A DNA stretch of 64,000 nt from Myxococcales bacterium (GTDB taxonomy: Bacteria > Myxococcota_A > Polyangia > Haliangiales > Haliangiaceae), in NCBI GenBank assembly GCA_028287135.1, contig JAQBQE010000029.1, positions 54,488 through 118,487 on the forward strand. Reading direction: 5' to 3'. Every line of letters begins with the position of its first letter. The stretch's first letter is position 1. A program made the position numbers and the translations under genes. Shown piece after piece: positions 2,648 to 22,572 of this stretch. A model generated the notes under the pieces. It did not search any database. It was not told the origin of the DNA and saw nothing but the letters and a program-made list of their open reading frames with translations.

Positions 2648-2678
2648 GCCTTCGTCCGGGCAGGTTATATTGGGGATC

Positions 2679-3587
2679 ATGGCGACCGATCACAACGAAC
2701 TGGACGACGCGACGGTCGTTGGCGCGGTCGCGGAAGACGTCGGCCTACTCAGCAAGGATCGCGCGTACCTGATCGTCATCGCGGGCACCCTCGTCGGCGA
2801 GATGATCCCGTTGAAGCAGACCACGATCCTCGGACGCGGGGTCGAGGCCGACGTTCGGCTGATCGAGGAGAAGATGTCTCGCCGACATTGCCGCCTCGTG
2901 ATCGACAAGGGCGAGACCTATATCGAGGACCTCGGCTCGAGCAACGGAACGTACGTCAACGGTGCGCGCGTCGCACGCCAGCGGCTGAGCGACGGCGACA
3001 AGATCCAGGTCGGAGAGACGACGATCCTCAAGTTCACCTATCACGACCGTCTGGAGGAGAGCTTCCAGCAGCAGATGTACGACTCGGCGCTGCGTGACGG
3101 GCTGACGAAGATCTTCAACAAGAAGTACTTCCAGGATCGGATCCGGACCGAGTTCGCGTTCGCATCGAGGCATCGGACCTCGCTGTCGCTGATCCTATTC
3201 GACATCGATCACTTCAAGAAGGTCAACGACACGCGTGGCCACCTCGCCGGTGATCGGGCTCTGGCAGCGCTTGCCCAGCACGTCGGGAACCTCGTTCGAA
3301 CCGAGGACGTGTTCGCTCGTTACGGTGGCGAGGAGTTCGCGGTGCTGTGTCGCGGGACCGACGTCCAGAATGCAGCGGTCCTCGCGGAGCGAATCCGATC
3401 GACGACCGAACAACTCGTCATCCAGTTCAACGGCGAGACGGTGCCGATCACGATCAGCGCCGGTGTTGCGATGATCCCGGATCCCCGGATCCGGGACGCG
3501 GATGAATTGATCGTTGCGAGCGACGAAGCGCTCTACGAAGCGAAGCGCAGCGGGCGCAACCGGGTGGTCACCCGCCCGCTGCCGTGA
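2679..3587 (+). CDS. FHA domain diguanylate cyclase (GGDEF), canonical active site
   Basis: A 302-residue cytoplasmic protein; ATG 2679 is preferred to an in-frame TTG at 2670. The N-terminal half is an FHA phosphothreonine-binding domain (LGRGVEADVRL, SRRHCRL, DLGSSNGTYVNG). A short linker leads to a GGDEF domain with FDIDHFKKVNDTRGHLAGD and RYGGEEF, so the metal- and GTP-contacting residues are all present and c-di-GMP synthesis from two GTP is expected. FHA input implies control by a Ser/Thr kinase. A paralogue of the same architecture at 24305-25249 has lost the signature residues. Confidence 0.93.
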   Translation: MATDHNELDDATVVGAVAEDVGLLSKDRAYLIVIAGTLVGEMIPLKQTTILGRGVEADVRLIEEKMSRRHCRLVIDKGETYIEDLGSSNGTYVNGARVARQRLSDGDKIQVGETTILKFTYHDRLEESFQQQMYDSALRDGLTKIFNKKYFQDRIRTEFAFASRHRTSLSLILFDIDHFKKVNDTRGHLAGDRALAALAQHVGNLVRTEDVFARYGGEEFAVLCRGTDVQNAAVLAERIRSTTEQLVIQFNGETVPITISAGVAMIPDPRIRDADELIVASDEALYEAKRSGRNRVVTRPLP

Positions 3588-3638
3588 GCCGACCGTCCTC
3601 GCTGGTGCTACAAGCAGGGCGTGAGTAGAGTCGCGCGG

Positions 3639-5405
3639 ATGTCGATGATGAAACGGTGGCTGCTGGTCGCACTGGCGTGCTCGTCGTGCGGTCGCGAGGA
3701 CAAGCCGGTACCGAAGCCCCAGGCCACCACCACCACGGTCTCGCCCGCGGCGCAGGTCGTCGACGATCGATACGATGCGAGAGCGCTCGGGGCGCTCAGC
3801 TTCGAGCTGTCCGAAGGCACGCCCGCGGCCCGGGCGCATTTCAAGCGCGGCCTGCTCGCTCTCCACTCGTTCTGGTACGACGAGGCCACGCGCGAGTTCC
3901 AGGCAGCGATCGTCGCGGATCCCAGCATGAACATGGCGTACTGGGGCGCGGCGATGAGCCGGTGCAAGCTCCTGTGGGGTGACGACGACGTCGCGGCAGC
4001 CAAGGAGCTGTTGTCCCGGATGCCCGATCCGGATCGGTTGTCTCCGCGCGAGCAGACCTGGGTGGTCGCGACGCTCGAGCTGCTTCGCGCTGGCGACGTG
4101 CGCGCGAGCCGCGCGAAGTTTGCCGCCGCGATGGAAGCGGTGAACGCCGAGTTTCCCGACGACGAGTCCGCCACGTTTCTTGCGCTGGCCGTGCTCTCGG
4201 CGATGCGGCCCGATGATCCGGACGCCATCGCCGTGCGCAAGCGGTCCGCTGCGCTGGCGCTCGGGGTGTTCAAGCGCAACCCCAAGCATCCCGGCGCAGC
4301 GCACTACCTGATCCATGCGTACGACACACCCGAGCTCGCGGCGGAGGCGCTGCCCTTCGCGCGCGCGTACGAGGCGATCGCGCCGGCCGCGTTCCACGCT
4401 CGCCACATGCCGGCCCACATCTTCTCGCGCATGGGGATGTGGAAGGACGCGATCACGAGCTGTCAGTCGGCGTGGGATGCATCGGTCGCGGCCGCCGGGC
4501 GCGAAAAGCTCTCGCGCGATCATCACGACTTTCACAGCCTCAGCTGGATCGTCGAGATGAACTTCGAGCTCGGTCGGCGCAAGGACGCCGATGCCGCGCT
4601 GAAGGTGTTCGAGACCGCGGTGCGTTCCGGCCTCGGTCGCCAGTTCCGGGCCGCGTATGCGAGCCAGGTGGCCTCGTACGTGAAGCGGACCGGTGATGCA
4701 TCCCGGATCGACGACCTGCTGGCTGCGCTCGAGGCGCCCGCGGTCGAGGAGGCTGCTCCAGCGGCTCCCGCAACGGGTAGCGCGGCGCGCAGCGGGCAGC
4801 CCGCGAGCCACTGTGCACCCGCGTCGGCGTCGTCGCCGCTCGCGTTGTTCGAGCACCTCGCGGTGAGCGATGCCCGTGCGCGCGCCGCTTCGATGCAGCG
4901 CGATCTCGCGAAGACGAAGAGCTACATCGCAGAGATGGATGCGGCGAACGAGAAGCTGCATCCGTTCTTCGCGTCGACGCAACCGGCGGACGCGCTCGCG
5001 AAGATGGACGCGGCGAACGCCCGCCGTCGAGAGGCGTTGCTCGCTCGCGCATCCGGCAACGATCGGAGGCTGCTCGAGGTCCTGCGGCAGTCCGTCGCCG
5101 CTGACGCGGGAGCCGGAGCGGCAGGGGAGAGCAATCCGAGCGGCTTCGTGGTGCAGGAGGAGATCGCCGACACGTTGCTGCGACTCGGTCAGGCCAAGGA
5201 GGCCGCGGCCGCGTATGACGCCGTGCTGCAGACGCATCCGGGCCGTGCGAGCGCCGTGCTGGGAGCGGCGCGCGCCGAATCCCGCGCGAAGAACCTGACC
5301 TCGGCACGCGCGCGGTACCAGCAGCTCCTCGAGCTGTGGTCCGCTGCGGACGACGGCATCGACGGCCTGGCCGAGGCTCGCTCCGCGGTCGCCGCGCCGA
5401 ACTGA
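3639..5405 (+). CDS. TPR-repeat lipoprotein (paralogue of the 15.9 kb gene)
   Basis: About 588 residues with a lipoprotein signal (MKRWLLVALACSSCG). ATG 3639 is chosen; GTG 3621 and ATG 3645 or 3648 are possible. The body is helical with tetratricopeptide-like repeats (LLALHSFWYDEATREFQAAI, HYLIHAYDTPE, HMPAHIFSRMGMWKDAI, and a final TPR around residues 500-570). It matches the protein at 15869-17653 in the same order of motifs, so the two are paralogues of a family usually annotated only as a TPR protein. It is probably periplasmic or outer-membrane-anchored and scaffolding; no catalytic motif is seen. It ends 24 bases before the convergent sensor gene, with no clear terminator between. Confidence 0.8.
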   Translation: MSMMKRWLLVALACSSCGREDKPVPKPQATTTTVSPAAQVVDDRYDARALGALSFELSEGTPAARAHFKRGLLALHSFWYDEATREFQAAIVADPSMNMAYWGAAMSRCKLLWGDDDVAAAKELLSRMPDPDRLSPREQTWVVATLELLRAGDVRASRAKFAAAMEAVNAEFPDDESATFLALAVLSAMRPDDPDAIAVRKRSAALALGVFKRNPKHPGAAHYLIHAYDTPELAAEALPFARAYEAIAPAAFHARHMPAHIFSRMGMWKDAITSCQSAWDASVAAAGREKLSRDHHDFHSLSWIVEMNFELGRRKDADAALKVFETAVRSGLGRQFRAAYASQVASYVKRTGDASRIDDLLAALEAPAVEEAAPAAPATGSAARSGQPASHCAPASASSPLALFEHLAVSDARARAASMQRDLAKTKSYIAEMDAANEKLHPFFASTQPADALAKMDAANARRREALLARASGNDRRLLEVLRQSVAADAGAGAAGESNPSGFVVQEEIADTLLRLGQAKEAAAAYDAVLQTHPGRASAVLGAARAESRAKNLTSARARYQQLLELWSAADDGIDGLAEARSAVAAPN

Positions 5406-5429: not shown

Positions 5430-8400
5430 TTACTGGATGACCGAGACGCCAGCGGCGGTGCCAGCGTCGTCGAGCGTCATCATGTCCGCGGTTCCCCACT
5501 GGAGGAGAACGGCGGTCCAGTCGTCGTCCTGTGCGCCGACCTGCACGCCCTCGACCTTCGTGATCAGCTGCTGGAGCGCGGTCTTGAGATCCTGCTCGCG
5601 CGTCTGCATGTAGAAGTTCGAGACACCACGCGGACCGAGCAGCTGGGTGTTGGCCATCGCGACCTCGGGAATACCGTCCGTGAGGATCAGCACGCGCTCG
5701 CCGGGGCGGAGCTTGCCCTCGAGCCGGCCCATCTCGAAGTGCGGCGATCCGAGCGGCATGCCGGGACACATCAGCACCTTGGTTCGCCCCTTCGGGGCCA
5801 GCGCGAACACCGGCACGCCACCGGCGCTTCGAATCACGTACTCGCCGGTGTTGATGTTGACGTTCACCGCAGTGAGCGTCATGTGGTACTGGCCCTGCGA
5901 CACGCGGAGGACCTCGTCGTTCATCTCCTGCAGGCGAGAGTCGTCGTCGACCTTCGTGCCGAGCGAACGGAAGCAGGCTGCGACCGCGGCGGTCACCATG
6001 GCCGAGCCGGCGCCGTGGCCGGTCACGTCACCCACGAGGATGAAGTAATCGTCGCCCCGGGCCTCCCACCACCACCAGTCACCACTGCACTGGGTGGCCG
6101 ACTTGTAGAACCCTTCGAGGCTCAAGCCGCCATCGCGCACCGACGACTCGGTCGGGAAGAACCCCTTCTGGACGGCGCTGGTCAGCGCCATCTCCTTCTC
6201 GAGCTCGGAGAGCCGATGCTTCTGGGTCATCGCGTCGAGCTGCTTGCGCTGCCGGCGCCAGACCAGACCACCGATCAGGACGAGGATCAGTCCGTAGCTC
6301 GTGTAGGCCCACCACGTGCGCCACGGCGGCGGCTCGACATGGATCGGGAGCTTGATGCCTTCTTCGTTCCACACCCCGTGCGCGTTCGATCCGCGAACCT
6401 CGAGGGTGTAGTTGCCCGGTGGCAAGCTCGAGTAGCTGACGAACCGACGATCGGTCTCGATCCAGTCGTGGAAGCCCGTGAGTCGGTACTTGTAGTGATT
6501 GCGAAGCGGCGACGCGAACGCGAGCGCCGAGAACGACACCGAGAACCAGCGATCCCTGAACGACAGCGACACGGCGTCAGGAATCTGCTTGGTCTCGCCG
6601 CGAATCTCGAACTTCGTCAGCACCACCGGAGGGACATACGAATCGGGCTTGAGGTCGTCGGGCGTGAAGACGTTGAAGCCACCGGGACCACCGACGTAGA
6701 ACCGTCCGCTCGGACCCTGGTGGAAGCCACCCTGACCGAACTCGTCGTTCTGCAAGCCGTCGCCGGCGCGGAAGTTGACCGTCTTCTTGTCGTCGGGATT
6801 GAACCGGGTCAGGCCGTCATTCGTCGTCAGCCACAGCACGCCGGTCTTGTCCTCGAGGATGCCGTACAGCACATCGCTCGCGAGGCCCTCGGCCGTATGA
6901 TAGTTCGTGAACACGCCGGTCGTGCGATCGAGCATGTTGAGACCGCCACCCCAGGTGGCGATCCACAGCCGACCGGCCTTGTCCTCGTGGATGTCGGTGA
7001 TGTGATCGTGGCTCAAGCTGCCGGGCTTGGCTGGATCGTGCATGTAGCGCACGACCTTTCCGGTGTTCTTGTCGAGCGCGTTGAGGCCCGCCGATGTTCC
7101 GACCCAGAGGATGTCGGGCTTCGTCCGGTCCTGGTGCAGCGCAACGACGGCGTCCGAGCTCAGCGTGGCTGCGTTGGCCGCATTCTTCGCGAAGTACTCG
7201 ATGGTCTTCTTGACCGTGTCGAACCGCGCGAGTCCGGCGCCGAAGGTGCCGATCCACAGCGTCTCGTCCTGCCGCAGCAGCGCGAACACGGCATCCGACG
7301 TGAGCGTTCCGCTGTCCGTGTCGTAGGTCTCCACCTCGCCGGTGCTCGGCGTGAAGTGGAGCAGTCCGCGATCCGTGGTCGCGAGCCACAGCGAACCCTT
7401 GTCGCCGGCGACGATCTTCATCGTCCAGGTCGCGCTCAGCTCCTCGTCGAGGTAGCTCTTCACGTTCCCGGTCTTGAGATCGAGCGAGCGAAGGCCGCGT
7501 CCCTGCGTGCCGAGCCACACCTGGTCCTTGTCCTCGAGGAAGGACAGTCCCGGATTGGTCCGGTAGAAGGCGAACTTGCGGCGCATCAGGTAGAGCTTCG
7601 AGGCGCCACCTGCATTGAAGCCGAACCACAACACACCGCCGCGGTCCGCGAACGCCGAGCGGGTCCACGGATGGCTGATGCTGGTCGAGTCGCCGCCGTC
7701 GTGGGCGTACTTCTCGATCGCGCCGTTGCTCCGATCGAACCGGAACACGCCGATGCCTTTGACGCCGAGCCACAAGCCGCCGTCGGCACCTTCGACGATC
7801 GACGTGATCCACTTCGGAGCGTCGATATCGACGAGGTAGCGCTTGAAGGAGTTGGTCTTGGCGTCGAACTGATTCAAGCCGTCGACGGTACCGACCCAGA
7901 CGGTGCCCGCGCTGTCCTGGTAGATCGACGTGATCTCGTCGCGGGACAGCGAGGTCCCCGAGGCCGGATCGTTGGTGTAGCGGGTGAACTTGCCCGACGC
8001 CGGATCGAGGCGATTCAGACCGGCTTCGCGCGTACCGACCCAGACCTTCTTGTCCTTGTCCTCGAGCACGACGGAGACGCCGTCATCGCTGAGCGAGTCG
8101 GCCTGGGTCTCCTGATGAGCAAAGTGGCGGATCTCCCCGCTCTCGATGTTCAGCGAGTCGAGACCTGAATCGGCGGTGCCGATCCAGAGCAGCCCGCTCG
8201 TGCCGAGATGCAGCGAGGCGATGTCATCGCTGGCGATCGCCTTGCCGTCCTCGGCGTTGGCCTTGAGCCGGGTGAACTTGTTGGTCTTCAGGTCGAGGCG
8301 GTTGAGACCGCCGACCGTACCGATCCACAACGCGTTCTTCCCCGCGGCGAGCGAGGTGACCGTGAAGCTCGACAGGGTGTTGTCCTGCTCGCGACCCGGC

Positions 8401-8684
8401 ACGTAGTTGACGAACTCGTAGCCGTCATAGCGGCTGAGTCCTTCCTCGGTGCCGAACCAGATCAGCCCGTTGTCGTCCTGCGCGATGGCGCTGACGGCAC
8501 CCTTGGTCATGCCCTCGATTCGATCGAACCGGACGTACGGGAACAGCGTTCCCTCGGTGGCACGTGGCGCCGCTTTGGCCGGCGGGTCCGCCGGCGGCGT
8601 CACCTGAGCAGCAGCCGATGCTGCCCACCCCAGCCAGAACACGAGTGACGTTACTTGTGGGAACAGTCTGCGTGCTGCGGCCAA
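5430..8684 (-). CDS. Two-component-regulator-propeller / Y_Y_Y sensor with SpoIIE-type PP2C phosphatase output
   Basis: A 1084-residue transmembrane sensor. The frame is open to 9110, but TTG 8684 gives a clean signal peptide (ending AASAAAQV) and has AAGAGG about 8 bases upstream, just after the stop of the upstream HDO gene. Order: signal peptide 1-26; reg_prop repeats about 47-690 (LIWFGTEEGLSRYD, LWIGTVGGLNRLD, VWVGTREAGLNRLD and many more) forming a double propeller; Y_Y_Y domain about 708-766; membrane helix about 790-810; short coiled coil; SpoIIE/PP2C phosphatase about 860-1065 with GDVTGHG, ILTDGIPE and DDDW metal motifs. Such propellers usually feed a histidine kinase; here the output is a serine phosphatase, which typically dephosphorylates an anti-sigma antagonist. 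The ligand is unknown. Confidence 0.9.
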   Translation of the reverse strand: MAAARRLFPQVTSLVFWLGWAASAAAQVTPPADPPAKAAPRATEGTLFPYVRFDRIEGMTKGAVSAIAQDDNGLIWFGTEEGLSRYDGYEFVNYVPGREQDNTLSSFTVTSLAAGKNALWIGTVGGLNRLDLKTNKFTRLKANAEDGKAIASDDIASLHLGTSGLLWIGTADSGLDSLNIESGEIRHFAHQETQADSLSDDGVSVVLEDKDKKVWVGTREAGLNRLDPASGKFTRYTNDPASGTSLSRDEITSIYQDSAGTVWVGTVDGLNQFDAKTNSFKRYLVDIDAPKWITSIVEGADGGLWLGVKGIGVFRFDRSNGAIEKYAHDGGDSTSISHPWTRSAFADRGGVLWFGFNAGGASKLYLMRRKFAFYRTNPGLSFLEDKDQVWLGTQGRGLRSLDLKTGNVKSYLDEELSATWTMKIVAGDKGSLWLATTDRGLLHFTPSTGEVETYDTDSGTLTSDAVFALLRQDETLWIGTFGAGLARFDTVKKTIEYFAKNAANAATLSSDAVVALHQDRTKPDILWVGTSAGLNALDKNTGKVVRYMHDPAKPGSLSHDHITDIHEDKAGRLWIATWGGGLNMLDRTTGVFTNYHTAEGLASDVLYGILEDKTGVLWLTTNDGLTRFNPDDKKTVNFRAGDGLQNDEFGQGGFHQGPSGRFYVGGPGGFNVFTPDDLKPDSYVPPVVLTKFEIRGETKQIPDAVSLSFRDRWFSVSFSALAFASPLRNHYKYRLTGFHDWIETDRRFVSYSSLPPGNYTLEVRGSNAHGVWNEEGIKLPIHVEPPPWRTWWAYTSYGLILVLIGGLVWRRQRKQLDAMTQKHRLSELEKEMALTSAVQKGFFPTESSVRDGGLSLEGFYKSATQCSGDWWWWEARGDDYFILVGDVTGHGAGSAMVTAAVAACFRSLGTKVDDDSRLQEMNDEVLRVSQGQYHMTLTAVNVNINTGEYVIRSAGGVPVFALAPKGRTKVLMCPGMPLGSPHFEMGRLEGKLRPGERVLILTDGIPEVAMANTQLLGPRGVSNFYMQTREQDLKTALQQLITKVEGVQVGAQDDDWTAVLLQWGTADMMTLDDAGTAAGVSVIQ

Positions 8685-8701
8685 ACGGTGCCTCTTTTCA
8701 G

Positions 8702-9748
8702 TTACGACGCGGCTTCGACCGAGCGGCGCAGCTTTGCAAACTCGCCGTCGAAGAAGGTGTGGTACAGGCCCTGGTGGTAGGCGATGCCCGAGTAGACCTG
8801 GGCAGCATCCTCGGGGGTCTCGATCCGGCGACCGAGCTCCTGACGCACCGTGAACGCGTGCTTGTCCTTGTCGTACGGGGCGCCTTCGCCGTGCGAGACG
8901 AGGACCTCCATCTTGTCGTCGCCGATGCCGCGCTCGCGCAGGGCGAGCAGGGCGGCGCGGAGCTCGAGATACGAGTTCCACTCGACGCTGAAGATGCCGG
9001 TGAACGCCCACAACGAGTCGGGGTGGGTCACCGTGCGGAGGTTCCAGTTGAGCATCGCGCGCATCTCGACGTTGTCGACGGGCGCGTGCCAGTCGACGAT
9101 CTCGCCCCACTTCTTGATGTCGTTGGCGGTCTGCTGCGCATGCGCCTTGTCGAGATCACCACCGCCGAGCTCGTCGACGACGAGCACCGCGAGCTTGATG
9201 CAGTCGTGGAACTCCATCGGGAGCTGCACCAGCATGATGCTGCGGTGAACGGTGCGGATCCGGACCATGACGCTGTTCAGGTAGGCCAAGACGGCGGCCT
9301 TCTCCTGCTTCGGGCTCATCTTGGTCTCGGCGAGGTACTTGAACAGCGGGTGGTGCTGCACCGACCGCTTGCGGAACTCTTCCTCGACGAAGATCGCAGC
9401 CTCTTCACCGACCATCGGCTTGGGCAGCGTCAGCTGCGGAACGTTCTGCTCCTCGACGGCCCACACGATGTCGCGGATTCCGGCGGAGACGAGATCTCCG
9501 CGGAAGAACGGCCGGCGGCGGTCACTGACCTTGAGGCCAGATGTGACCTTGAACATGGGCAGCTCGAAGATCCCGTTCTGGATCAATCTCCAGGCGGTCT
9601 TGTCCTTGTCCTTGAACGCCAGCGTGGCGAGCTCGTGAGCCAACGGTGCGCGCTCAGCGAGAGCGCGCGCCTGGTCCACTGGATTGAGCGACGAAGGTGA
9701 AAACACCTTGTCAGCAAGCGCGGTCAACTCCTGCTCGGATCGAGTCAT
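8702..9748 (-). CDS. Heme-oxygenase-like diiron (HDO) family protein, variant metal site (HDO-1)
   Basis: A 348-residue all-helical protein; ATG 9748 is preferred because GGGAGGG lies 8-14 bases upstream, although the frame opens at 9781. It resembles the iron-containing redox enzyme/TENA-PqqC-like fold: VDELGGGDLDKAH (E193, H203), FSVEW (E256) and SHGEGAPYDKDKH (H286, H297). The E256-to-H286 distance of 30 equals that in the two HDO proteins across the divergent promoter, but the usual HxxxDxxH is interrupted by about four residues. HDO enzymes use O2 and a pair of irons (or Fe/Mn) for N-oxygenation, C-C cleavage or desaturation; the substrate here is unknown. It is the first gene of an operon with the propeller/PP2C sensor (17 bases apart). 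Confidence 0.7.
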   Translation of the reverse strand: MTRSEQELTALADKVFSPSSLNPVDQARALAERAPLAHELATLAFKDKDKTAWRLIQNGIFELPMFKVTSGLKVSDRRRPFFRGDLVSAGIRDIVWAVEEQNVPQLTLPKPMVGEEAAIFVEEEFRKRSVQHHPLFKYLAETKMSPKQEKAAVLAYLNSVMVRIRTVHRSIMLVQLPMEFHDCIKLAVLVVDELGGGDLDKAHAQQTANDIKKWGEIVDWHAPVDNVEMRAMLNWNLRTVTHPDSLWAFTGIFSVEWNSYLELRAALLALRERGIGDDKMEVLVSHGEGAPYDKDKHAFTVRQELGRRIETPEDAAQVYSGIAYHQGLYHTFFDGEFAKLRRSVEAAS

Positions 9749-9878
9749 GTACGGTCCCTCCCGTGACGACGAAGCTATCATGGTGTTCGCCCGCCTGTAG
9801 CCGCAGCTCGCGCTTTAGAGTGGAGAACAATCCGCCTACATTTTCTCCAACCCGCATTCACGTTACGATGTCTCGAGG
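9749..9878. promoter_or_regulatory. Divergent promoter region between HDO-1 and HDO-2
   Basis: A 130-base non-coding region separates the two outward-facing HDO transcription units. It contains the ribosome-binding site of HDO-1 (complement of about 9756-9762) and a locally AT-richer patch near 9835-9850 (ACATTTTCTCCAA). I cannot place -35/-10 boxes with confidence. Shared control of both arms is an inference from the geometry. Confidence 0.5.
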
Positions 9879-10862
9879 GTGGACTTGACTCCAATGCAGC
9901 TAGACCTAACCGAGCTCCGTCGCCAACTTTCCGACCCATGGGCTCTCGAGGATCCAGGCGCCGCAGGCATTGCCGGCGTCGCCAAGGACCTCGAGGCGCT
10001 TGCCCACCGTGCCTACATCGACGGCGACGAAGCCGCGAAACGGCAGGCGGAGGAGATCCTCTACTTCATCAACATCGACAGCTGCTTCGCGCCGCCGCTG
10101 CACTCCGTGGCCTCGGTGGCGTGGACCACGCTGATGCGCGTCAAGCTCGCGGCGATGCGCAGGGCGTTCGGCGGCTGCGAGCCGATCGAGGTCCCCGAGA
10201 TGACCCGCCGGCTCAAGGCGGCGGTCGCGCAATGGGGTGCCTACAACCACCCCCTGATGCAGACGCTGAAGACGCGCTCCGACGACATCGGCGCCTACCG
10301 GATCTGGGCGAAGAACTGGTTCGGCAGCTGCCTTGGCTTCTCGTCGCAGCTCGCCGCGCTCGTCCAGCGCACCCATGGCGAGGCCAAGAAGTGCGTGCTC
10401 GAGAACCTGACCGACGAGTTCGACGACAAGGTGACGCACGACGTCCTGCGCATCCGGTTCTACGAGAGCCTCGACCTCAAGTTCTCCGCCGCCGACGCGC
10501 TGAACGATCCGGATCGTGTGGTCGAGGCGACCGAGCTCCTCAACGCGCGCACCGGCCTGACGTTCTTGCGCGACCCGCTGTGGGCGCTCGGCTGCTTCTA
10601 CGGCGTCGAGGCGAACTGGCCGACCGAGTGCCGGATGCACGTCGAGATCAACAAGAGCCGCGGGCTCGATGATCACACGCTCGAGTACTGGACCGGTCAC
10701 GCCTTCGCGGACGACCACCACTCGGCAGAATGGCTCGAGGTCCTCGAGAACCTGTGCCGCACTCCCCGCGACTGTGCGGCGGCCGTCGACGGGGCCGTCA
10801 TCCAGTTGCGCCTACGCTGGCAGATGTACGACGCGATCGCCCGACGCATTGCGGCCCACTGA
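9879..10862 (+). CDS. Heme-oxygenase-like diiron (HDO) family protein with N-terminal extension (HDO-2)
   Basis: A 327-residue protein; GTG 9879 is taken as start, ATG 9894 is possible. The C-terminal ~230 residues carry an HDO ligand set: LTDEFDDKVTH (E180, H187), GVEANWP (E244) and HAFADDHH (H274, D278, H281 = HxxxDxxH). The spacing H-57-E-30-H-4-D-3-H is identical to that of HDO-3 next door, which supports homology beyond general fold. About 95 extra residues precede the core relative to HDO-3. The expected chemistry is O2-dependent oxidation by a dinuclear metal centre; the substrate is unknown. It lies 14 bases upstream of HDO-3, in one operon. Confidence 0.75.
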   Translation: MDLTPMQLDLTELRRQLSDPWALEDPGAAGIAGVAKDLEALAHRAYIDGDEAAKRQAEEILYFINIDSCFAPPLHSVASVAWTTLMRVKLAAMRRAFGGCEPIEVPEMTRRLKAAVAQWGAYNHPLMQTLKTRSDDIGAYRIWAKNWFGSCLGFSSQLAALVQRTHGEAKKCVLENLTDEFDDKVTHDVLRIRFYESLDLKFSAADALNDPDRVVEATELLNARTGLTFLRDPLWALGCFYGVEANWPTECRMHVEINKSRGLDDHTLEYWTGHAFADDHHSAEWLEVLENLCRTPRDCAAAVDGAVIQLRLRWQMYDAIARRIAAH

Positions 10863-10876
10863 CGAAGGAAGCTCCC

Positions 10877-11662
10877 ATGTCTGACACCCAACAATTCCTG
10901 AAGGACCTCAACGAGGAGGTGCGGAACCACCCCGCGGTGAACCACCACTTCCTCGAGACCGTGAGCACGCGCCCGTTCTCGAAAAAGGCGTGGCTCGGCG
11001 GGTTCGCGCAACAGCTCTATCCGCACGTGCACTTCTTCATTCCGTACATGGAGGAGATGCTGCTCAACACGTTCGACATGAATGCCAAGCTGATCGTCGC
11101 GAAGATTCTTCTCGACGAGTACGGCGAGGACGCGGCCGGCGCGAGCCATCCGGAGCTGTTCCGCCGCTTCGTCCGTGGCTGCGGTGGCGCGGAGGCGGAT
11201 GCCTCCCTGCTCACCACGCCACTCGACCAGGCGACGGTCGACCTGGTGCAGACGCACATGCGGCTGTGCCGCGACGAGCACTTCCTCGTCGGCATCGGCG
11301 CGATCGGCCAGGCGCACGAGTTCGCCATCGCATACCTGTTCCCGCCGATCCTGAAGGGCATGAAGCTCTCGGGCTTCACGAGCACCGAGACCGAGTTCTT
11401 CTCGCTGCACGTCGATCACGACGTGGAGCACTCGAAGATGCTCGAGGACACGATGATCAAGATGGCGATCAGCGACGAGGATCGGGCGATGATCCGGAAG
11501 GGTGCGCTCGCATCCCTGCAGGCTCGCGCTGACCTCTGGGCATCGATGGAGCGCCGGATGATCGGGATCGAGAACGGCGATGTGCCGCCGACCAGCAAGC
11601 AGACGCTGCTCGACATGACCAAACAGTTCAAGAACGTCCCCGACGCGTTCTGGCCGTCCTGA
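10877..11662 (+). CDS. Heme-oxygenase-like diiron (HDO) family protein, canonical ligand set (HDO-3)
   Basis: A 261-residue protein with a good ribosome-binding site (AAGGAAG) before ATG 10877. It is all-helical, of typical size for iron-containing redox enzymes of the HDO superfamily (relatives: CADD, UndA, the SznF central domain, PqqC/TENA fold). Likely metal ligands are E81 and H91 in DEYGEDAAGASHPELF, E148 in GQAHEFA, and H178/D182/H185 in HVDHDVEH. All six are present, so an active Fe2 or Fe/Mn site is expected. The N-terminal HPAVNHHF also fits the family. The product or substrate cannot be read from the sequence. It is followed by a strong hairpin at 11725-11751. Confidence 0.85.
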   Translation: MSDTQQFLKDLNEEVRNHPAVNHHFLETVSTRPFSKKAWLGGFAQQLYPHVHFFIPYMEEMLLNTFDMNAKLIVAKILLDEYGEDAAGASHPELFRRFVRGCGGAEADASLLTTPLDQATVDLVQTHMRLCRDEHFLVGIGAIGQAHEFAIAYLFPPILKGMKLSGFTSTETEFFSLHVDHDVEHSKMLEDTMIKMAISDEDRAMIRKGALASLQARADLWASMERRMIGIENGDVPPTSKQTLLDMTKQFKNVPDAFWPS

Positions 11663-11724
11663 CCTGACCGGCGGGTAGGCGGCCGCCCGTGGCTGCCCGC
11701 CGAAACGCTGCCGACCGAAACGCG

Positions 11725-11751
11725 AAAAGCGCCCTCCGAAGAGGCGCTTTT
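11725..11751. terminator. Bidirectional intrinsic terminator
   Basis: A perfect 9-bp stem (AAAAGCGCC/GGCGCTTTT) with a 9-base loop and A/T-rich outer ends. It sits between the convergent ends of HDO-3 and the lipoprotein gene, so it can terminate both. Confidence 0.85.
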
Positions 11752-11780
11752 GCTGCGTTCAGTGCGTCGAGGTCAGCAGC

Positions 11781-13424: not shown

Positions 13425-14609
13425 GTGGCAGCACTTGATGGAATCGTCGTCCTCGATCTCACGCACGTCGTGGCGGGGCCGTTTTGCACGATGATGATGG
13501 GCGACCAGGGCGCGAACGTGATCAAGGTCGAGCGGCCGGGGAAGGGTGATCACATCCGGGCATGGCCACCTTCTTGGAACGGCACCGCGTCGGCGTTCCT
13601 GGCGCTCAACCGCAACAAGCGGAGCATCGCGATCGACTTCCAGCAGCCGCGCGGAGCGGACGTGGTGCGAGCGCTCGCCGCGAAGGCCGATGTCGTCGTC
13701 GAGAGCTTTCGTCCCGGTTCACTCGCCAAGCATGGCCTTGCGTACGAGCAGATCCGGGAGCTCAACCCTCGCGTCATCTACTGCAGCATCTCCGGCTACG
13801 GCCAGACCGGACCGCTGGCGGAGCTCGGTGGGTACGATCTGATCGCGCAAGCGTTCGGCGGGTTGATGAGCACGACGGGCCAGCCCGAAGGGCCGTCCGT
13901 GCGCGCGGGCTACTCGGTGGTCGACACGTTCGCCGGGATGTCCGCGTACGGCGCCGTGATGACCGCGCTGCTGCAGCGCGAGAGGACCGGCCAGGGTCAG
14001 TACGTGGAGACCTCGCTGCTCGACGCCGTCGTCGCGCAGATGAGCTATCACGCCACCGGCTACCTCGCGACGGGCAAGATCCCCGGCCGGCTCGGCACGG
14101 CGAGCCCGAGTCTCGTCCCGTATCAGCAGTTCCAGAGCGCGGATGCCGACTTCATCATGGGCTGTAACAACGACGTGTCGTGGCGGCGGCTGTGCACCGC
14201 GCTCGCGCGACCGGATCTCGCCACCGACCCACGATTCACCACGAATGCGGATCGGCTCCGTAACAAGGAGCTGCTGATCGGGATGCTCTCGGAGATCTTC
14301 CGCACGCAGAGTGCGACGCACTGGGTGACGCTGTTCAACGCGCACCAGGTGCCGAGCAGCCGGATCAACACGGTCGCCGACGTCGTCCACGACGAGCAGG
14401 TCGCTGCACGCGATCTGCTCCCCGCGATCCCGCATCCCGCGATCCCCGATCTGCGAGCTCCGGCTACACCGTTCAAGCTCGTCGGCGCATCCGCCGCCCC
14501 GATCAAGCCTCCGCCGGGACTCGGCGAGCACTCCGGGGCGATCCTCGAGGAGCTCGGCTTTTCGATCGAGGACGTCGAGGCACTGCGCAGTGCCGGTGTG
14601 GTTGGTTGA
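13425..14609 (+). CDS. Type III CoA-transferase (CaiB/BaiF family)
   Basis: A 394-residue protein, normal length for the family. GTG 13425 has AAGGAGAT upstream. The N-terminus (GIVVLDLTHVVAGPF...MMGDQGANVIKVERP) is the family signature, with an Asp near residue 169 (SLLDAVV) where the catalytic Asp of formyl-CoA transferase lies. The reaction is transfer of CoA between carboxylic acids; the donor and acceptor cannot be told from sequence (relatives act on carnitine, oxalate, bile acids, aromatic acids or methyl-branched acids). Neighbouring lipoproteins give no pathway clue; the hypothetical gene upstream may be in its operon. Confidence 0.92.
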   Translation: MAALDGIVVLDLTHVVAGPFCTMMMGDQGANVIKVERPGKGDHIRAWPPSWNGTASAFLALNRNKRSIAIDFQQPRGADVVRALAAKADVVVESFRPGSLAKHGLAYEQIRELNPRVIYCSISGYGQTGPLAELGGYDLIAQAFGGLMSTTGQPEGPSVRAGYSVVDTFAGMSAYGAVMTALLQRERTGQGQYVETSLLDAVVAQMSYHATGYLATGKIPGRLGTASPSLVPYQQFQSADADFIMGCNNDVSWRRLCTALARPDLATDPRFTTNADRLRNKELLIGMLSEIFRTQSATHWVTLFNAHQVPSSRINTVADVVHDEQVAARDLLPAIPHPAIPDLRAPATPFKLVGASAAPIKPPPGLGEHSGAILEELGFSIEDVEALRSAGVVG

Positions 14610-14683: not shown

Positions 14684-15301
14684 ATGAGGACTGAAAGCGC
14701 CGTGCGCTCGATCGGAGTGCTTGCCGTCGCGGTGATCCTGACGACCGGGTGCAGCGGGGACGATGGGAACGAGGCGATCGATGCGCAGAGCGAGGACGCC
14801 GCGCCGGACGCGCCGAAGGGCCCGTGCTGGCCCGTCGAGGGCACGACGCCCGGCGGATCGCTCGAGCTCGGGACCGGCGAGTTCGGCTTCGAGCCGATGC
14901 CGGATCCGCTGCAGGTGGTCTATGGCTCGCAGGGTGGATTCCACATGGTGGTCAACACCCGCGTCACCGGGATGCTCGCCGGCAATCCCAGCGACGTGAG
15001 TGACCCGAGCAATCCGCGGACCCGGTTTCGCGCGTTCTTCGTCGATACCGGCGTCTCCGTCAACGGTGCGGTGTGTCCGATCCGGCTCGCCTACAAGCCC
15101 TCGGCGGGATCGACGCACGAGCTCCTGGTCTCGTCGGCGATCCTGTTCGAGATCGGCTATCCGGAACACCTGATCTTCGGCCGCGAGATCCGGATCGAGG
15201 CCGAGGTCATCGACGCGGCCGGTACCTATGCGAGGGACGAGAAGACGATCCGGTGCGCTGCGCCCGACGGCTGGCAGACGATGGTCGACGCCGGCACCTG
15301 A
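14684..15301 (+). CDS. Lipoprotein, first copy of a tandem duplication
   Basis: A 205-residue lipoprotein beginning at ATG 14684 (signal ending VILTTGCSGDD). After an Asp/Ala-rich linker comes a ~150-residue domain starting TTPGGSLELGTGEFGFEPMP. The following gene repeats this domain almost identically. The domain has two or three Cys and a likely Ig-like beta-sandwich (FRAFFVDTG, CPIRLAYKP, IRIEAEVIDAAG), of unknown function. It overlaps the next gene by one base (TGATG at 15299-15303), so the pair is co-translated. Confidence 0.8.
   Translation: MRTESAVRSIGVLAVAVILTTGCSGDDGNEAIDAQSEDAAPDAPKGPCWPVEGTTPGGSLELGTGEFGFEPMPDPLQVVYGSQGGFHMVVNTRVTGMLAGNPSDVSDPSNPRTRFRAFFVDTGVSVNGAVCPIRLAYKPSAGSTHELLVSSAILFEIGYPEHLIFGREIRIEAEVIDAAGTYARDEKTIRCAAPDGWQTMVDAGT
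14843..15295 (+). repeat. Tandem gene duplication, unit 1 of 2
   Basis: A 453-base coding block that recurs without any gap at 15406-15858. The differences are scattered and mostly at third codon positions; the signal-peptide and linker parts outside the block are unrelated. This points to a recent duplication or ongoing gene conversion of the mature domain. Confidence 0.85.
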
Positions 15302-15864
15302 TGCACCTCGCCCGCCGGCTCCTCGCCCTGACCGTCGTCGTTGCGGGCTGTAGTGACCAGCCGGGGGCGCCTGACGCGCGCCCTCCGTGCTGGATTCCCG
15401 AGGCCACGACGCCCGGTGGATCGCTCGAGCTCGGCACCGGCGAGTTCGGCTTCGAACCGATGCCGGATCCGCTGCGCGTGGTCTACGGATCCCAGGGTGG
15501 TTTCCACATGGTGGTCAACACGCGCGTCACCGGGATGCTCGCTGGCAATCCCAGCGACGTGAATGATCCGGGCAATCCGCGAACGCGGTTTCGCGCGTTC
15601 TTCGTCGACACCGGCGTCAACGTCAACGGCGCGGAATGTCCGATCCGGCTCGCCTACAAGCCGTCGGCGGGATCGACCCAGGAGCTCCTGGTCTCGTCGG
15701 CGATCCTGTTCGAGATCGGCTATCCCGAACACCTGATCTTCGGCCGCGAGATCCGCATCGAGGCCGAGATCATCGACGCGGCCGGGACCTACGCGAGGGA
15801 CGAGAAGACGATCCGGTGCGCCGCGCCCGAGGGCTGGCAGTCGATGGTCGACGCCGGCGTCTGA
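15301..15864 (+). CDS. Lipoprotein, second copy of a tandem duplication
   Basis: A 187-residue lipoprotein from ATG 15301, with its own signal (LALTVVVAGCSDQ) and a shorter linker than the upstream copy. The mature domain differs from the upstream one at only about ten residues over some 150. Two proteins with the same mature domain but different anchors and linker lengths may form a hetero-oligomer or differ in expression. It ends 4 bases before the convergent TPR gene. Confidence 0.8.
   Translation: MHLARRLLALTVVVAGCSDQPGAPDARPPCWIPEATTPGGSLELGTGEFGFEPMPDPLRVVYGSQGGFHMVVNTRVTGMLAGNPSDVNDPGNPRTRFRAFFVDTGVNVNGAECPIRLAYKPSAGSTQELLVSSAILFEIGYPEHLIFGREIRIEAEIIDAAGTYARDEKTIRCAAPEGWQSMVDAGV
15406..15858 (+). 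repeat. Tandem gene duplication, unit 2 of 2
   Basis: Second 453-base copy, same length as unit 1 and collinear with it. Confidence 0.85.
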
Positions 15865-15868
15865 CGCG

Positions 15869-17653
15869 CTACTTCTTGGCGACGAACGCGCGGGCCGCGG
15901 CGATCTCGGGGCGCGTGCTGTCGCCCGCTGCGGTCTGCTCGACGGCCTGCTCGTAGTACTTGCGAGCGACGTCCGCCTTGCCGGCCTTCTGGGCAGCGAG
16001 GCCCGCACCGAGCAGGCTGTTGAGTCGGCGCGGTGACGTCTTGAGTGCCGTCTCGTACGCGACGATCGCTTCGGCCGGCTTGTCGAGCTGCAGCAGCAGA
16101 TCGCCGAGCTGCTCGTAGATCAGGTTGATCGGGCCCGGGCTGACCGGGTTCTTGCCGAGCTCCTCTTCCATCTGCGCCGCCTTGCGGAGCGCTGCGATCG
16201 CGTCGGCGCTCTTGCCCTTCGCCTGGGTCAGCCACGCGGTGACGGCCTGGTGCTGCAGCGCGAGGTGCTGCTTGAAGTACGCGAACTTGGGATCGTTGGT
16301 CAGGTCGCGCAGCTCGGTCAGGCGGGCAAGCGACTTCTCGGCACCCGCGATGTCTCCGCTGCGAGCGCGGCCAAGACCACGCGCGTACTCGATGTGAGCC
16401 TCCGCGAACGGGAACTTGGTCCAGAACGACGCGGTCGGAACCGTCAGTGCCGCCGCCTCGGCCCACGCATGGCGCTCGACGGCGAACCGGGCCGGCACCG
16501 CACCGACCGCGTAGGATGCGACGAAGTCGATCTCCGGGACCGTCTTCTTCACCGACATCACGTGCTCCACGACCGCCTTGGCCTTGGCCTCCTGTCCGGT
16601 CTGCAGATACGCGTAGACGAGGTAGTCGAGTGCGTGCAGCTCCTCGAACGACATCCCGTCGAGCTTCATCTCGGTGACGTACTTCTTCCCCGCGTCTGCC
16701 GAGGCCAGGTTGCCGTTGATCGAGTCCTGCCACATGCCGAGTCGAACGAAGATGTGCGACGGCATGTGCAGCGCGTGCGGCACCCACGGCGCGATGTCGG
16801 CGTACGCCTTCGCGACCTCGAGCCCGCGCTCCGCGAGCGGCGGGAAGTCGTAGGCGTGGATCATGTAGTGCGCGACGCCCGGGTGATCGCGGTGAGTGGC
16901 CCACTGCTTCTCGAGGATCTCGGCCGCCTTGCGCGGGTTCGTCAGCGTCGGATCGACAGGCTTCGCCGAGCCGAGGAGTGCGAGCGCATAGAACGATGCA
17001 GCCTCCGTGTCCTCGGGGTTCGCCGCGAACACCTTCTCCATCGCCATCGTGTAGGTGGTCGCGCGCGTGAGGTGATCGCCACCGCCCGTGGGGCCGTGGC
17101 AGCTCATCCCGCCGGCGGATCCTGCGGCCGATCCGGCGCCCGGCTTCGGCGCCGGCATGTCGGTGTAGAACGTCGCCAGCGCATCGATGAACGTCGTCTC
17201 GTGCGGCGACTTCTTGGGCGCGGCCTTCGCCTTCTCGATCGCGGCGCGGCCGCTCGCGAGCTCCTCGGGCGTCGGCGGGGCCCACAGCGGGTGGTAGTAG
17301 GTCATCGCCACGCCCCAGTGCGCGATGCTGCAGTCGGGATCCTTGGTCGTCAGCTCCGTGAACAGGCGGCGCGATTCGCCATAGAAGAACGAGTGCAGCA
17401 GGGCCATCGCGCGATCGAACTGCGCCTGCTGTCCGTCGCAGGAGATCTTGAAGTCGACGCGACCGACCTTCCGGAGGTCGCCGACGGCAGGACCGTCGGT
17501 GGCGGTCGTGGACTTCGCGGGCGTGGCGACCGCGGGCGTGACGTCGGTTGTGGGCGCGACGGGAGTTCCCGGCTCTGACGCCTTCTTGCACGCGGCCCCC
17601 GTCAACGCGGACCCGAGAGTGAGCAGGAGAACGGCGCGTTCCAGCTTGGGCAT
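15869..17653 (-). CDS. TPR-repeat lipoprotein (paralogue of the 3.6 kb gene)
   Basis: A 594-residue lipoprotein from ATG 17653 (signal LTLGSALTGAACKK). It has helical TPR-like repeats with the same landmark motifs as the protein at 3639-5405: LLHSFFYGESRRLF, SIAHWGVAM, HPGVAHYMIHAYDFP, HMPSHIFVRLGMWQDSI and a C-terminal TPR with AYETALKTSPRRL. A CxGPTGGGD-like Cys-Gly patch (SCHGPTGGG) near residue 190 is absent from the paralogue and resembles an internal loop. No enzyme motif is seen; a periplasmic scaffold or binding role is likely. Confidence 0.82.
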   Translation of the reverse strand: MPKLERAVLLLTLGSALTGAACKKASEPGTPVAPTTDVTPAVATPAKSTTATDGPAVGDLRKVGRVDFKISCDGQQAQFDRAMALLHSFFYGESRRLFTELTTKDPDCSIAHWGVAMTYYHPLWAPPTPEELASGRAAIEKAKAAPKKSPHETTFIDALATFYTDMPAPKPGAGSAAGSAGGMSCHGPTGGGDHLTRATTYTMAMEKVFAANPEDTEAASFYALALLGSAKPVDPTLTNPRKAAEILEKQWATHRDHPGVAHYMIHAYDFPPLAERGLEVAKAYADIAPWVPHALHMPSHIFVRLGMWQDSINGNLASADAGKKYVTEMKLDGMSFEELHALDYLVYAYLQTGQEAKAKAVVEHVMSVKKTVPEIDFVASYAVGAVPARFAVERHAWAEAAALTVPTASFWTKFPFAEAHIEYARGLGRARSGDIAGAEKSLARLTELRDLTNDPKFAYFKQHLALQHQAVTAWLTQAKGKSADAIAALRKAAQMEEELGKNPVSPGPINLIYEQLGDLLLQLDKPAEAIVAYETALKTSPRRLNSLLGAGLAAQKAGKADVARKYYEQAVEQTAAGDSTRPEIAAARAFVAKK

Positions 17654-17944
17654 CCGGCCGACTATAAATCCGCCGATCCCGCGCCGGCAACTGCGGTGCT
17701 GCTCAACCACGCGCCAGGCCTGGCCAGATCGCGGCGACTGATCACGGTTATCAGTCAAACAGAGCAGAAACGCGAACAACGATGCAGACGGCCGGGAAGG
17801 GGAGCGGAAGCCACGGAATTTGGATCAGTGCTCGGTCGGGTGGCAGATATATATCGTGAGTGATTGAGCCATGTTGCGAGGCTAAGTGGAGTGGCTTCTC
17901 ACGTGCACATAGGTTCGTCACCCCCCGCCAAGGAGTCTGGATAC

Positions 17945-20052: not shown

Positions 20053-21105
20053 GTGAGGCCGATCGTTTGGATGTCTGAGCCGCTGTCGCGCTCGCTCCGC
20101 GACAGGCTCTCCGGAGAGTCGCTCGTCGTGAGCTCCACGCAGGAGTTCATCGACGCGCCGCGCGATGCGAGGACCGTGTCGTTCCTCGACGGCTCGACGC
20201 TCGCAGCACTCGACGAGCTCGCACTCGCGTACGGCAAGGAGGTGGTCCCGCCGCCGAACTGGCGACGCCTCGTCGCGGCCGTGTCGCTCGGCCCGGTGAT
20301 CCTGATCTCCTCGGATCCGATCCGGGCCACGATCAACGGGCTCCAGCCCCACCCATGGCTATCACACATCCTGAGCGCGACCATGCTCGAGCACCGCATG
20401 GCCGCCGAGCACATCGGTCACGTCATGCAGGCAGCGACCACCACGGACACGCCGAGGCTCATGGACTGGCTCGGCACCGAGGTCGCGGCCCGCCGGATCC
20501 GGATCGCCCACGCGAGCAAGCGTATCGAGCGGCTCGAGCGGATGAGCGAGTTCTTCACCTCGCAGGGCGTCAGCGAGCGTACGGTTCACCAGATCCGCGA
20601 CGTCGCCGAGGAGCTCCTGACCAACGTGTTCTACAACGCGCCCGTCGCAGCCGGCGCGGTCAAGGATCCGATCCCGCGATCCCAGGACGTCTCGCTCCCC
20701 GCGGACAGCGCGTGCGATCTGATCTACGGGACCCGCGAAGACCTCGCGTTCGTGCGGGTCCGCGACCCGTTTGGCTCGCTGTCGAGGTCGCGGCTCGTCG
20801 AGGTGCTCGCCCGCTGCGCGCGCACGGAGAAGGTCGAGGTCGACAGCTCGATGGGCGGCTCGGGCCTCGGCCTGTGGCGCGTCGTCAACGCCGCCTCGCT
20901 GCTCTCGATCCTGGTGGTCAACAACCACCACACCGAGGTGCTCGTCGGGATCATCGACCGCCCCGCTGCGGGCCAGCGTCCGTTCGCGTTTCACATGTTC
21001 GTGAAGGACGGCGCGAAGCGCAGGTCCTGGACGTCCGCGAACCAGGACACCGGCGTCTCCGAGCCGACGTTCAACACGTCGGTCGCGATCGTGCTCAAGG
21101 ACTAG
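20053..21105 (+). CDS. HATPase_c-domain protein (histidine-kinase-like or anti-sigma-like ATPase)
   Basis: A 350-residue cytoplasmic protein from GTG 20053. The C-terminal half is a GHKL ATPase: VAEELLTNVFYNA (N box) and MGGSGLGLWRV (G2 box). No H-box with a phospho-accepting His is obvious; the region before it (about 100-165) is helical. The first ~100 residues look like an alpha/beta pseudo-receiver (VILISSDPIRATING). It may be an anti-sigma-type serine kinase, and so could be a partner of a SpoIIE-type phosphatase such as the one at 5430-8684; this is inference only. It shares the CTAG stop palindrome with the convergent comB. Confidence 0.75.
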   Translation: MRPIVWMSEPLSRSLRDRLSGESLVVSSTQEFIDAPRDARTVSFLDGSTLAALDELALAYGKEVVPPPNWRRLVAAVSLGPVILISSDPIRATINGLQPHPWLSHILSATMLEHRMAAEHIGHVMQAATTTDTPRLMDWLGTEVAARRIRIAHASKRIERLERMSEFFTSQGVSERTVHQIRDVAEELLTNVFYNAPVAAGAVKDPIPRSQDVSLPADSACDLIYGTREDLAFVRVRDPFGSLSRSRLVEVLARCARTEKVEVDSSMGGSGLGLWRVVNAASLLSILVVNNHHTEVLVGIIDRPAAGQRPFAFHMFVKDGAKRRSWTSANQDTGVSEPTFNTSVAIVLKD

Positions 21106-21806
21106 GCGCGCGCGGCATCGACGACGCGGAACCACCGCGCGTCGGCTCGTCCCACGACGCGCGGCACGATCGGCACCGCGTCGAGGTCGAAGCAGAGGTC
21201 GATGTCGGCGCCGAGGTTCGGCTCGTTCGCGCGACGCTCCATGATCCGCGCATCGAGCCGACACGCAGCGATCGCTGCGGCGGTGTCGATGGGCGCAGCC
21301 GGGTCGGGAGCCAGCATCGCGACGATCACGTCGGCGCATGCGTCGTCCTCGGCGTTGCGCCGCACGCGCTTCACGTTGCCTGCCGGCATCAGCGCGACCG
21401 AGGCTACGCCTCTGCGGTGGACGTGGTCGAGGATCGCGGCCACGTTGATGAAGCCGGCGAGCAGGACCTCGTCGGCGATCTGTGCGGCGAGGCTGATCGC
21501 GAGCGTGCCGTTGGTCGTCACCAGCACGGGCATCCGCCCATCGAGCTCGACATCGCGCGCCTGGATCGGCGAGTTGTCGAACCGCGGGATGTCGGACTCC
21601 ACGCCGGCCAGCTCGCTGAACAGCGCGTAGCCGGCGGCACGCTCGGGCAGCTCACCCAGGTCGGCGGGCGTGGTCACCACGCACAGCTCACCGAGCCGGC
21701 GGCACAGCACGGTGGCGGTGCTGGTCGCGCGCAGGACATCGATGACGATGCAGATGTCGACGCGCTCACCCGGCGGATCTCCGGGGCGGACGATCGAGAC
21801 GCGCAC
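21102..21806 (-). CDS. comB: 2-phosphosulfolactate phosphatase (ComB family)
   Basis: A 234-residue protein starting at GTG 21806, one base after the comA stop. It carries the family signature CIVIDVLRATST and the later TTNGTLAI and ADVIVA segments typical of ComB phosphatases. The reaction is hydrolysis of (R)-2-phospho-3-sulfolactate to (R)-3-sulfolactate in a Mg2+-dependent step; known from methanogen coenzyme M synthesis and from bacteria that make sulfolactate. With the synthase next door this makes (R)-sulfolactate from phosphoenolpyruvate and sulfite. No comC, comD or comE is visible here, so the pathway endpoint is open. Confidence 0.88.
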   Translation of the reverse strand: MRVSIVRPGDPPGERVDICIVIDVLRATSTATVLCRRLGELCVVTTPADLGELPERAAGYALFSELAGVESDIPRFDNSPIQARDVELDGRMPVLVTTNGTLAISLAAQIADEVLLAGFINVAAILDHVHRRGVASVALMPAGNVKRVRRNAEDDACADVIVAMLAPDPAAPIDTAAAIAACRLDARIMERRANEPNLGADIDLCFDLDAVPIVPRVVGRADARWFRVVDAARA

Positions 21807-21807
21807 G

Positions 21808-22569
21808 CTAGCTACCGCGACGGGCGGGCCACGTCAGCAGCGTGTGCTCCTTGAGGCCGCGCCGGAACGACTCGAGCGTCAGCACGTCGGTGGTCTTGAT
21901 GTTGGCGAGGTTCACGTTCGGCCCGAGCTTCTTCAAGAAGAACAGCTGCTGGGGGCGCTCGAGCGCTTCCCAGATCAGGCGGTCGTGGCCACCGGCGAGC
22001 TCGAGTAGCTCGTCGACGAAGCCTTCCCGGACCGGCTGACCGACGGGCCCGACCTGGCGTCCCTCGACGACGATCTTCTTGGCACCGGCGCCGAACTCCT
22101 GCTTCAGGACCTCGCCCCAGTCCTTCACGTGGAGCGCGATCTTGCCGCCGATCTCCGACCACACCTCGGTGACCGCGCCGAACCGCTCGATCCACTTCAG
22201 CTTGTCCGCGGTCGGGATATCGATCGAGCCGTCCGAGACCTCGATGTGGATCTTGGTCGCGCGAACGAGCGCGAACAGCTCCTCGAGCTTGCCGTGGAGG
22301 AACGAGTACTCGAACAGCGTCCCGCCGAGCATCGGGCTGATCCCGGCGTTGCGATAGATCTCGAGCTTGGCATCGAGGTTCGCCGTGATCAGGGAGCTGC
22401 CCCAGGCGATCTTGACGAAGTCGCAGTGGGCGGCGGCGGTATCGGCGAGATCCGCGGCACCGCGCGGGCCAAGACCGGTATCGAGCGCGATCGTCAGGCC
22501 GTGATCACGGGGCTTGACCGTGCGGTCGCTGACGTCGAGTACAGCGCGAAAGAGCGGTTCCTGGTTCAT
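21808..22569 (-). CDS. comA: Phosphosulfolactate synthase (ComA family)
   Basis: A 253-residue protein of usual family length from ATG 22569. Signatures are KPRDHGLTIALDTGLG, CDFVKIAWGSS, LGGTLFEYSFLHGK, IEVSDGSIDI and WSEIGGK, all of the ComA TIM-barrel. The reaction adds sulfite to phosphoenolpyruvate giving (R)-2-phospho-3-sulfolactate. It is three bases downstream of ggt and one base upstream of comB, which places all three in one tight operon. ComA in bacteria is sporadic and often marks sulfolactate or sulfonate specialised pathways. Confidence 0.92.
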   Translation of the reverse strand: MNQEPLFRAVLDVSDRTVKPRDHGLTIALDTGLGPRGAADLADTAAAHCDFVKIAWGSSLITANLDAKLEIYRNAGISPMLGGTLFEYSFLHGKLEELFALVRATKIHIEVSDGSIDIPTADKLKWIERFGAVTEVWSEIGGKIALHVKDWGEVLKQEFGAGAKKIVVEGRQVGPVGQPVREGFVDELLELAGGHDRLIWEALERPQQLFFLKKLGPNVNLANIKTTDVLTLESFRRGLKEHTLLTWPARRGS

Positions 22570-22572
22570 GGA

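Follow-up and report, generated by a model that had tools for sequence, protein, structure and literature searches.

The window analysed here is a 64,000-nucleotide stretch of contig JAQBQE010000029.1 (positions 54,488 to 118,487, forward strand) from an uncultured Myxococcales bacterium of the family Haliangiaceae (GenBank assembly GCA_028287135.1). The source genome, G000, is 4.84 Mb in size and 59.5% complete, and was compared with 15 other genomes of its genus. We describe three adjacent genes within the window, A, B and C, each of which encodes a protein of the heme-oxygenase-like oxidase (HDO) family. The features of the locus are as follows.

8702..9748, minus strand: gene A, an FlcD-like HDO of 348 amino acids, consisting of an N-terminal helical domain and an HDO domain.
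8858..8893, minus strand: residues H286-H297 of A, H-G-x-G-x-P-Y-D-x-D-x-H, where core helix 3 usually has H-x3-D-x2-H.
9749..9893, no strand assigned: the intergenic region between A and B, where both promoters presumably lie.
9879..10862, plus strand: gene B, an HrmI-like HDO of 327 amino acids from GTG 9879 or 322 amino acids from ATG 9894.
10877..11662, plus strand: gene C, a single-domain CADD/BesC-like HDO of 261 amino acids.
11725..11751, plus strand: a perfect 9-bp inverted repeat after C, bounded by runs of A and T.

A and B are divergent, and the gap from B to C is 14 bp. An earlier interpretation of the window, made from its letters and called here the sequence-only reading, had placed three proteins at 8702-9748, 9879-10862 and 10877-11662. 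These coordinates are right, except that the starts of its homologues indicate that B probably begins at ATG 9894 rather than GTG 9879. A simple scan of the A/B gap found no sigma-70-type promoter, and across the three genomes that carry the genes the gap is conserved only in patches. The inverted repeat is likely to be a two-way terminator that closes the B-C unit. The stretch 11715-11765 folds at -20.4 kcal/mol (z -2.63), and the repeat is absent from the list produced by a simple terminator scan. A, B and C are under purifying selection: between G000 and its two relatives the ratio of nonsynonymous to synonymous substitution (dN/dS, NG86) is 0.12-0.31 for these genes, and 0.23-0.28 for the neighbouring gene S, which is described below.

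All three proteins score above the gathering threshold of the HDO family PF14518 (28.9 bits), with 41.9 bits for A, 67.5 for B and 84.6 for C, which confirms the family assignment of the sequence-only reading. Its expectation of an HDO fold is borne out for the two proteins covered by predicted models, A and B, both of which match HDO structures with the seven-helix heme-oxygenase-like fold. G000 has six PF14518 matches overall, half of them within about 3 kb. The others are at C3:35309-35833 (L001), C55:60997-61509 (L003) and C46:115596-116138 (L005), and two of these have the H-x3-D-x2-H sequence with an E-to-H distance of 30. Profile-profile comparison among the three gave E-values of 7.9e-11 for B and C, 3.7e-5 for A and B, and 0.029 for A and C. 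These values place A, B and C in three different subfamilies rather than making them recent copies of one another, and a recent tandem duplication is not favored.

Conservation was assessed from homologue lists containing 95 proteins for B, at least 75 for A (from the best 7996 candidates scored) and 73 for C. The alignments, including the query, have 36 rows for B, 34 for A and 33 for C, hand-picked for spread with fragments and near-copies excluded; "invariant" refers to these chosen rows. Mean column identity over them is highest for A, at 73%, the other two alignments having 62% and 54%. Two of the 73 homologues of C (P0184 and P0239) have PF11251 as a second precomputed match in addition to PF14518.

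The six-residue motif E-H-E-H-(D/E)-H is invariant in B (E180, H187, E244, H274, D278, H281; 36/36) and in C (E81, H91, E148, H178, D182, H185; 33/33). The spacings are H187-57-E244-30-H274-4-D278-3-H281 in B and H91-57-E148-30-H178-4-D182-3-H185 in C, while A has E256-30-H286. The sequence-only reading had reported exactly these distances, with 30 residues from E to H in all three proteins, and had described a shared E...H...E...H layout. The four positions are indeed present throughout, being invariant in A as E193, H203, E256 and H286 (34/34), but A fails the six-residue motif, lacking the H-x3-D-x2-H end common to B and C. Nor is the distance of 30 a special link between the three, an idea that we reject: it is a family trait, since 10 of 16 other HDO loci in G000 and its relatives fit it (nine of them with 30 alone). 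Of the remainder, four match with a distance of 32 but not with 30, one needs 35 or 38, and one has no match; the pattern used for these loci was loose enough to pick up two chance hits in non-HDO frames as well. In C a further glutamate, E59, is invariant (33/33) and lies 22 residues ahead of E81; it may correspond to the extra glutamate that an auxiliary helix contributes in 3H/4C HDOs of the SznF type. In B two cysteines that are not at ligand positions, C151 (10329-10331) and C239 (10593-10595), are invariant in all 36 rows.

A is unusual at the end of the motif. Four residues after H286 the alignment has D in 21 rows, A in 6, E in 3, H in 2, and S and G in one each; seven residues after it, where B and C have histidine, all 34 rows have aspartate. 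Within the replacement sequence H286, G287, Y292, D293, D295 and H297 are each invariant (34/34). In the predicted model, core helix 3 is broken at residues 288-296, leaving helices at 281-287 and 297-308.

Within the genus, a genome has either all three genes or none of them. Matches to A, B and C of at least 73% identity occur in the same three of the 16 genomes of the genus, namely G000, G007 and G008, and the other 13 are without them. The sequence-only reading had named absence from relatives as a point that would count against it, and had proposed a neighborhood comparison; the trio proved to be conserved in two relatives. G000 and G007 have the same layout of A divergent from B-C. In G008 a contig break runs through gene B, whose parts lie at the ends of two contigs, and the adjacency of A, B and C is inferred across the break. 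Four of the 13 trio-less genomes have weaker matches to C (E-values of 2.0e-8 to 9.1e-4, 23%-28% identity), which on sequence similarity we take to be other HDOs. Among 35 genomes of the order, B is found in the same three; in a phylum sample of 377 genomes it is found in two, G000 and G008 (five candidates scored per genome listed). A plasmid search with B gave no match, and a viral-contig search with A gave none that could be confirmed. A genome-contig search with A gave just two loci, whose contigs equal those of G007 and G008 in length. In metagenome lists, 13 of the 19 A contigs of at least 8 kb have a counterpart of equal size in the list for B or for C, and 6 have one in both. Equal size is a proxy for a shared contig, and some short coincidences (e.g., 1473) cannot hold both genes.

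A genus tree could not be based on RecA, of which the incomplete G000 has no full copy. A TypA tree includes 15 of the 16 genomes and has 2 of its 12 inner branches well supported. On this tree the presence of the trio needs two changes, and none of 200 bootstrap trees needs only one, which suggests that the trio may have been gained or lost separately; the well-supported branches alone are compatible with one origin.

The following genes lie around the trio.

1061-2647: FG-GAP-repeat gene.
3639-5405: TPR gene.
5430..8684, minus strand: gene S, a Reg_prop / Y_Y_Y / SpoIIE (PP2C) sensor by Pfam; a neighbor of the trio in two of the three trio genomes, and not counted in the unit.
13425-14609: CoA-transferase-III gene, 1.8 kb beyond C.
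21102-24192: ComB (PF04029), ComA (PF02679) and gamma-glutamyltranspeptidase (PF01019) genes in a row.

Only the FG-GAP-repeat gene and the TPR gene are found within about 10 kb of the trio at all three loci, and the TPR gene is itself patchy, occurring in 6 of the 16 genomes. The G007 flank was scanned to about 11.4 kb, and the trio contig of G007 ends 1.7 kb past C. The claim of the sequence-only reading that no other enzyme accompanies the trio holds for the three genes themselves, but not for the wider window, where the CoA-transferase-III gene follows C; no counterpart of this gene was found in the stretches of G007 and G008 searched. No reductase was recognized among the window genes scanned between 159 and 26742, a scan that did not take in every gene. 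Two similar tandem small genes (14717-15301 and 15301-15864) look lipoprotein-like by eye, and their relatives adjoin C in G007 and S in G008. TPR genes at 3621-5405 and 15869-17779 flank the trio region and match each other's homologues. FHA-GGDEF genes (2670-3587 and 24305-25249) likewise lie on either side of it, the homologue of the first abutting A in G008.

We lean towards the view that A, B and C carry out successive HDO steps of one pathway. The three would likely use O2 and iron in consecutive steps of a short pathway on an amino-acid-derived substrate, with B and C each presumably binding two metal ions and using O2. By analogy with HrmI, B would likely N-oxygenate an amine; A would likely process the N-oxygenated intermediate, in the way that FlcD excises an oxime carbon; and C, after its relative BesC, would likely cut or desaturate a C-C bond. 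The substrate of A would differ from that of FlcD, because A keeps only one of the six residues with which FlcD contacts its substrate. As a working model, a third HDO is added to the FlcE-to-FlcD relay. The substrate and the electrons would have to be supplied from outside the locus, because the FG-GAP-repeat and TPR genes are the only neighbors common to the three loci. We hold each of the named reactions less firmly than the general proposal of successive steps. More tentative still, and in our judgment possible but doubtful, is a combination in which an all-HDO pathway passes along one small substrate and A founds a new class of HDO metal site, its core helix 3 opened into a loop and the invariant Y-D-x-D-x-H supplying the ligands of the second metal or replacing that metal.

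Several points weigh against successive steps in one pathway. A reaction is not fixed by similarity of fold: according to a review, functions diverge even among HDOs that share a ligand set (PMC13108848). The predicted models cover A and B. For B, one or both of the profile searches favor BesC, CADD and FlcD over HrmI (E-values of 0.017 and 8.6e-4 to HrmI; 8.7e-8 and 1.4e-7 to BesC). The trio was observed in its neighborhood in just three genomes of one genus, where its presence is not clustered beyond chance on the TypA tree (72 of 500 shuffles are as low). The patchiness might reflect missing contigs, yet the 13 trio-less genomes are 73%-97% complete.

The joint presence of the three genes would also be expected if they formed an assembly rather than a relay, with one or two non-catalytic partners, most probably A, acting as scaffold or regulator of the others. 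The last two ligands that core helix 3 normally carries are missing from A, and the helix is broken in its model. However, A keeps four ligand-position residues in every row together with the invariant D293, D295 and H297, which a dead scaffold need not do; FlcD is active with such a site and one iron (PMC11363339); and the alignment of A, over its hand-picked rows, has a higher mean column identity (73%) than either of the others. We consider an assembly of this kind fairly unlikely.

The sequence-only reading had coupled the trio to the PP2C-output sensor, S, and a sensory oxidation module in which S detects what the trio makes or regulates the trio can be argued from the gene order. S adjoins A and is co-directional with it in both G000 and G007; the G007 genes run hyp, lp, C, B, A, S. 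Orthologues of S, 71% and 75% identical, are present in G007 and in G008, even though they are unlinked in the latter; four other genomes have relatives of only 40%-45% identity. In G008, however, hyp, lp and S are consecutive on one contig with no trio between them, S being on a different contig from the trio, and A abuts a GGDEF gene; the trio there is flanked by homologues of window genes 20071 and 2670. In G001 and G015, which carry no trio, the TPR gene shares a contig with a distant S relative. S is therefore separable from the trio, though it is present in all three trio genomes, and joint presence may reflect region or relatedness, the TPR gene being patchy as well. Because S and the trio lie apart in G008, we have lowered our estimate of the sensor explanation and regard it as unlikely. 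What survives of the earlier proposal is the small specialized oxidation module, as an inference, without its control by the sensor.

The ordinary explanation, that three unrelated HDOs of separate pathways have come together by chance in a few related genomes, we find quite improbable. HDO genes are not rare, G000 itself having three more PF14518 genes elsewhere, and the distribution on the tree fits chance. Against this stand the all-or-none presence across 16 genomes, the A / B-C layout common to G000 and G007, and the same-size contig coincidences in metagenomes.

Very unlikely, in our view, is a sulfonate pathway, in which the trio would act on a product of the phosphosulfolactate (ComA/ComB) route. 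ComA is found in just three of the 16 genomes, and these are the three trio genomes; in G008, moreover, C is followed by one gene with no Pfam match and then by homologues of the window ComB, ComA and gamma-glutamyltranspeptidase genes. In the window itself, however, ComB and ComA are more than 9 kb from C, and the ComA of G007 is divergent (45%-46% identical), lies on another contig than the trio beside peptide-synthetase genes, and may be unrelated. Because of this peptide-synthetase setting the explanation is kept as a weak rival.

Finally, C might make p-aminobenzoate by self-sacrifice, as CADD and NePabS do, with A and B serving as its accessory oxidases. Its top profile matches (1rcw, 8va9 and 9pj4) and a partial TIGR04305 match would point that way, but we reject this as extremely unlikely, since both sacrificial residues are replaced and the TIGR04305 cut-off is not reached. 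For C, the self-modifying module that the sequence-only reading offered as an option is likewise not supported in a CADD-like form.

Known HDOs include much unusual chemistry, and about a dozen of them have a validated function among more than 10,000 sequences (PMC13108848). Three genes that encode nothing but HDOs make a compact set that lends itself readily to reconstitution and could bring a new multi-step O2 pathway to light; A would test how much alteration an HDO metal site tolerates. No account of such a trio was found among the titles and abstract beginnings listed by searches of the open-licence PubMed Central (PMC) literature, in agreement with the sequence-only reading, which could match the arrangement to no described system.

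Compared with known systems, C resembles CADD and NePabS in being a single-domain HDO, and its best profile match is CADD (CT610, 5.5e-14), represented by the structures 1rcw and 8va9; another 4-aminobenzoate synthase, 9pj4, is also among its best matches. It differs from CADD in its first ligand pair, which is E-x9-H rather than E-x6-H, and it reaches only 65.3 bits against the TIGR04305 subfamily cut-off of 200. The sacrificial residues of CADD are Tyr27 and Lys152 (PMC11965152), which in an alignment read by eye correspond to Leu26 (33/33 rows) and Ile158 of C. BesC, a 4-chloro-allylglycine synthase, has profile matches both to C (3.7e-13) and to B (8.7e-8), though C scores 42.5 bits against a cut-off of 500 for the BesC family NF042919. 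HrmI is the lysine N-oxygenase of hormaomycin biosynthesis; the predicted model of B matches its fold over the full length at 19% identity, and, unlike in the HrmI setting, no peptide-synthetase gene was found beside the trio. The mangotoxin system MboA-MboB is likewise an HDO-centered biosynthesis, but combines one HDO with a dedicated reductase and other enzymes (PMC13185094).

The model for the proposed relay, and the only succession of two HDOs in the literature consulted, is FlcE-FlcD of fluopsin C biosynthesis in Pseudomonas aeruginosa. There one HDO takes over from the other on a substrate derived from an amino acid: an oxime is first formed by oxidative decarboxylation and N-hydroxylation, and the oxime carbon is then excised (PMC11363339). 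Fluopsin C synthesis also requires FlcB (PMC11363339), whereas at the three loci described here only the HDOs stay adjacent. FlcD has E181, H191, E244 and H274 with spacings of 10, 53 and 30; one iron is held by E181, H191 and H274, and helix 3 contains a loop before substrate binding (PMC11363339). In the survey given in section 10 of the same source, the FlcD motif was strongly predicted in one of 150 groups, and about 9% had no strong prediction. The predicted fold of A is closest to that of FlcD, and A keeps the iron triad together with E244, as E193, H203, H286 and E256, with the identical spacing 10-53-30 in all 34 rows. V278 and R281 of FlcD, placed by a fixed offset from E256, correspond to A290 and D293, and of the substrate contacts R121, Q147, R150, Y220, R224 and H251 one is kept (R150, as R163, in 34/34 rows). 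Because D293 replaces R281 and one contact in six is kept, we describe A as FlcD-like rather than as FlcD.

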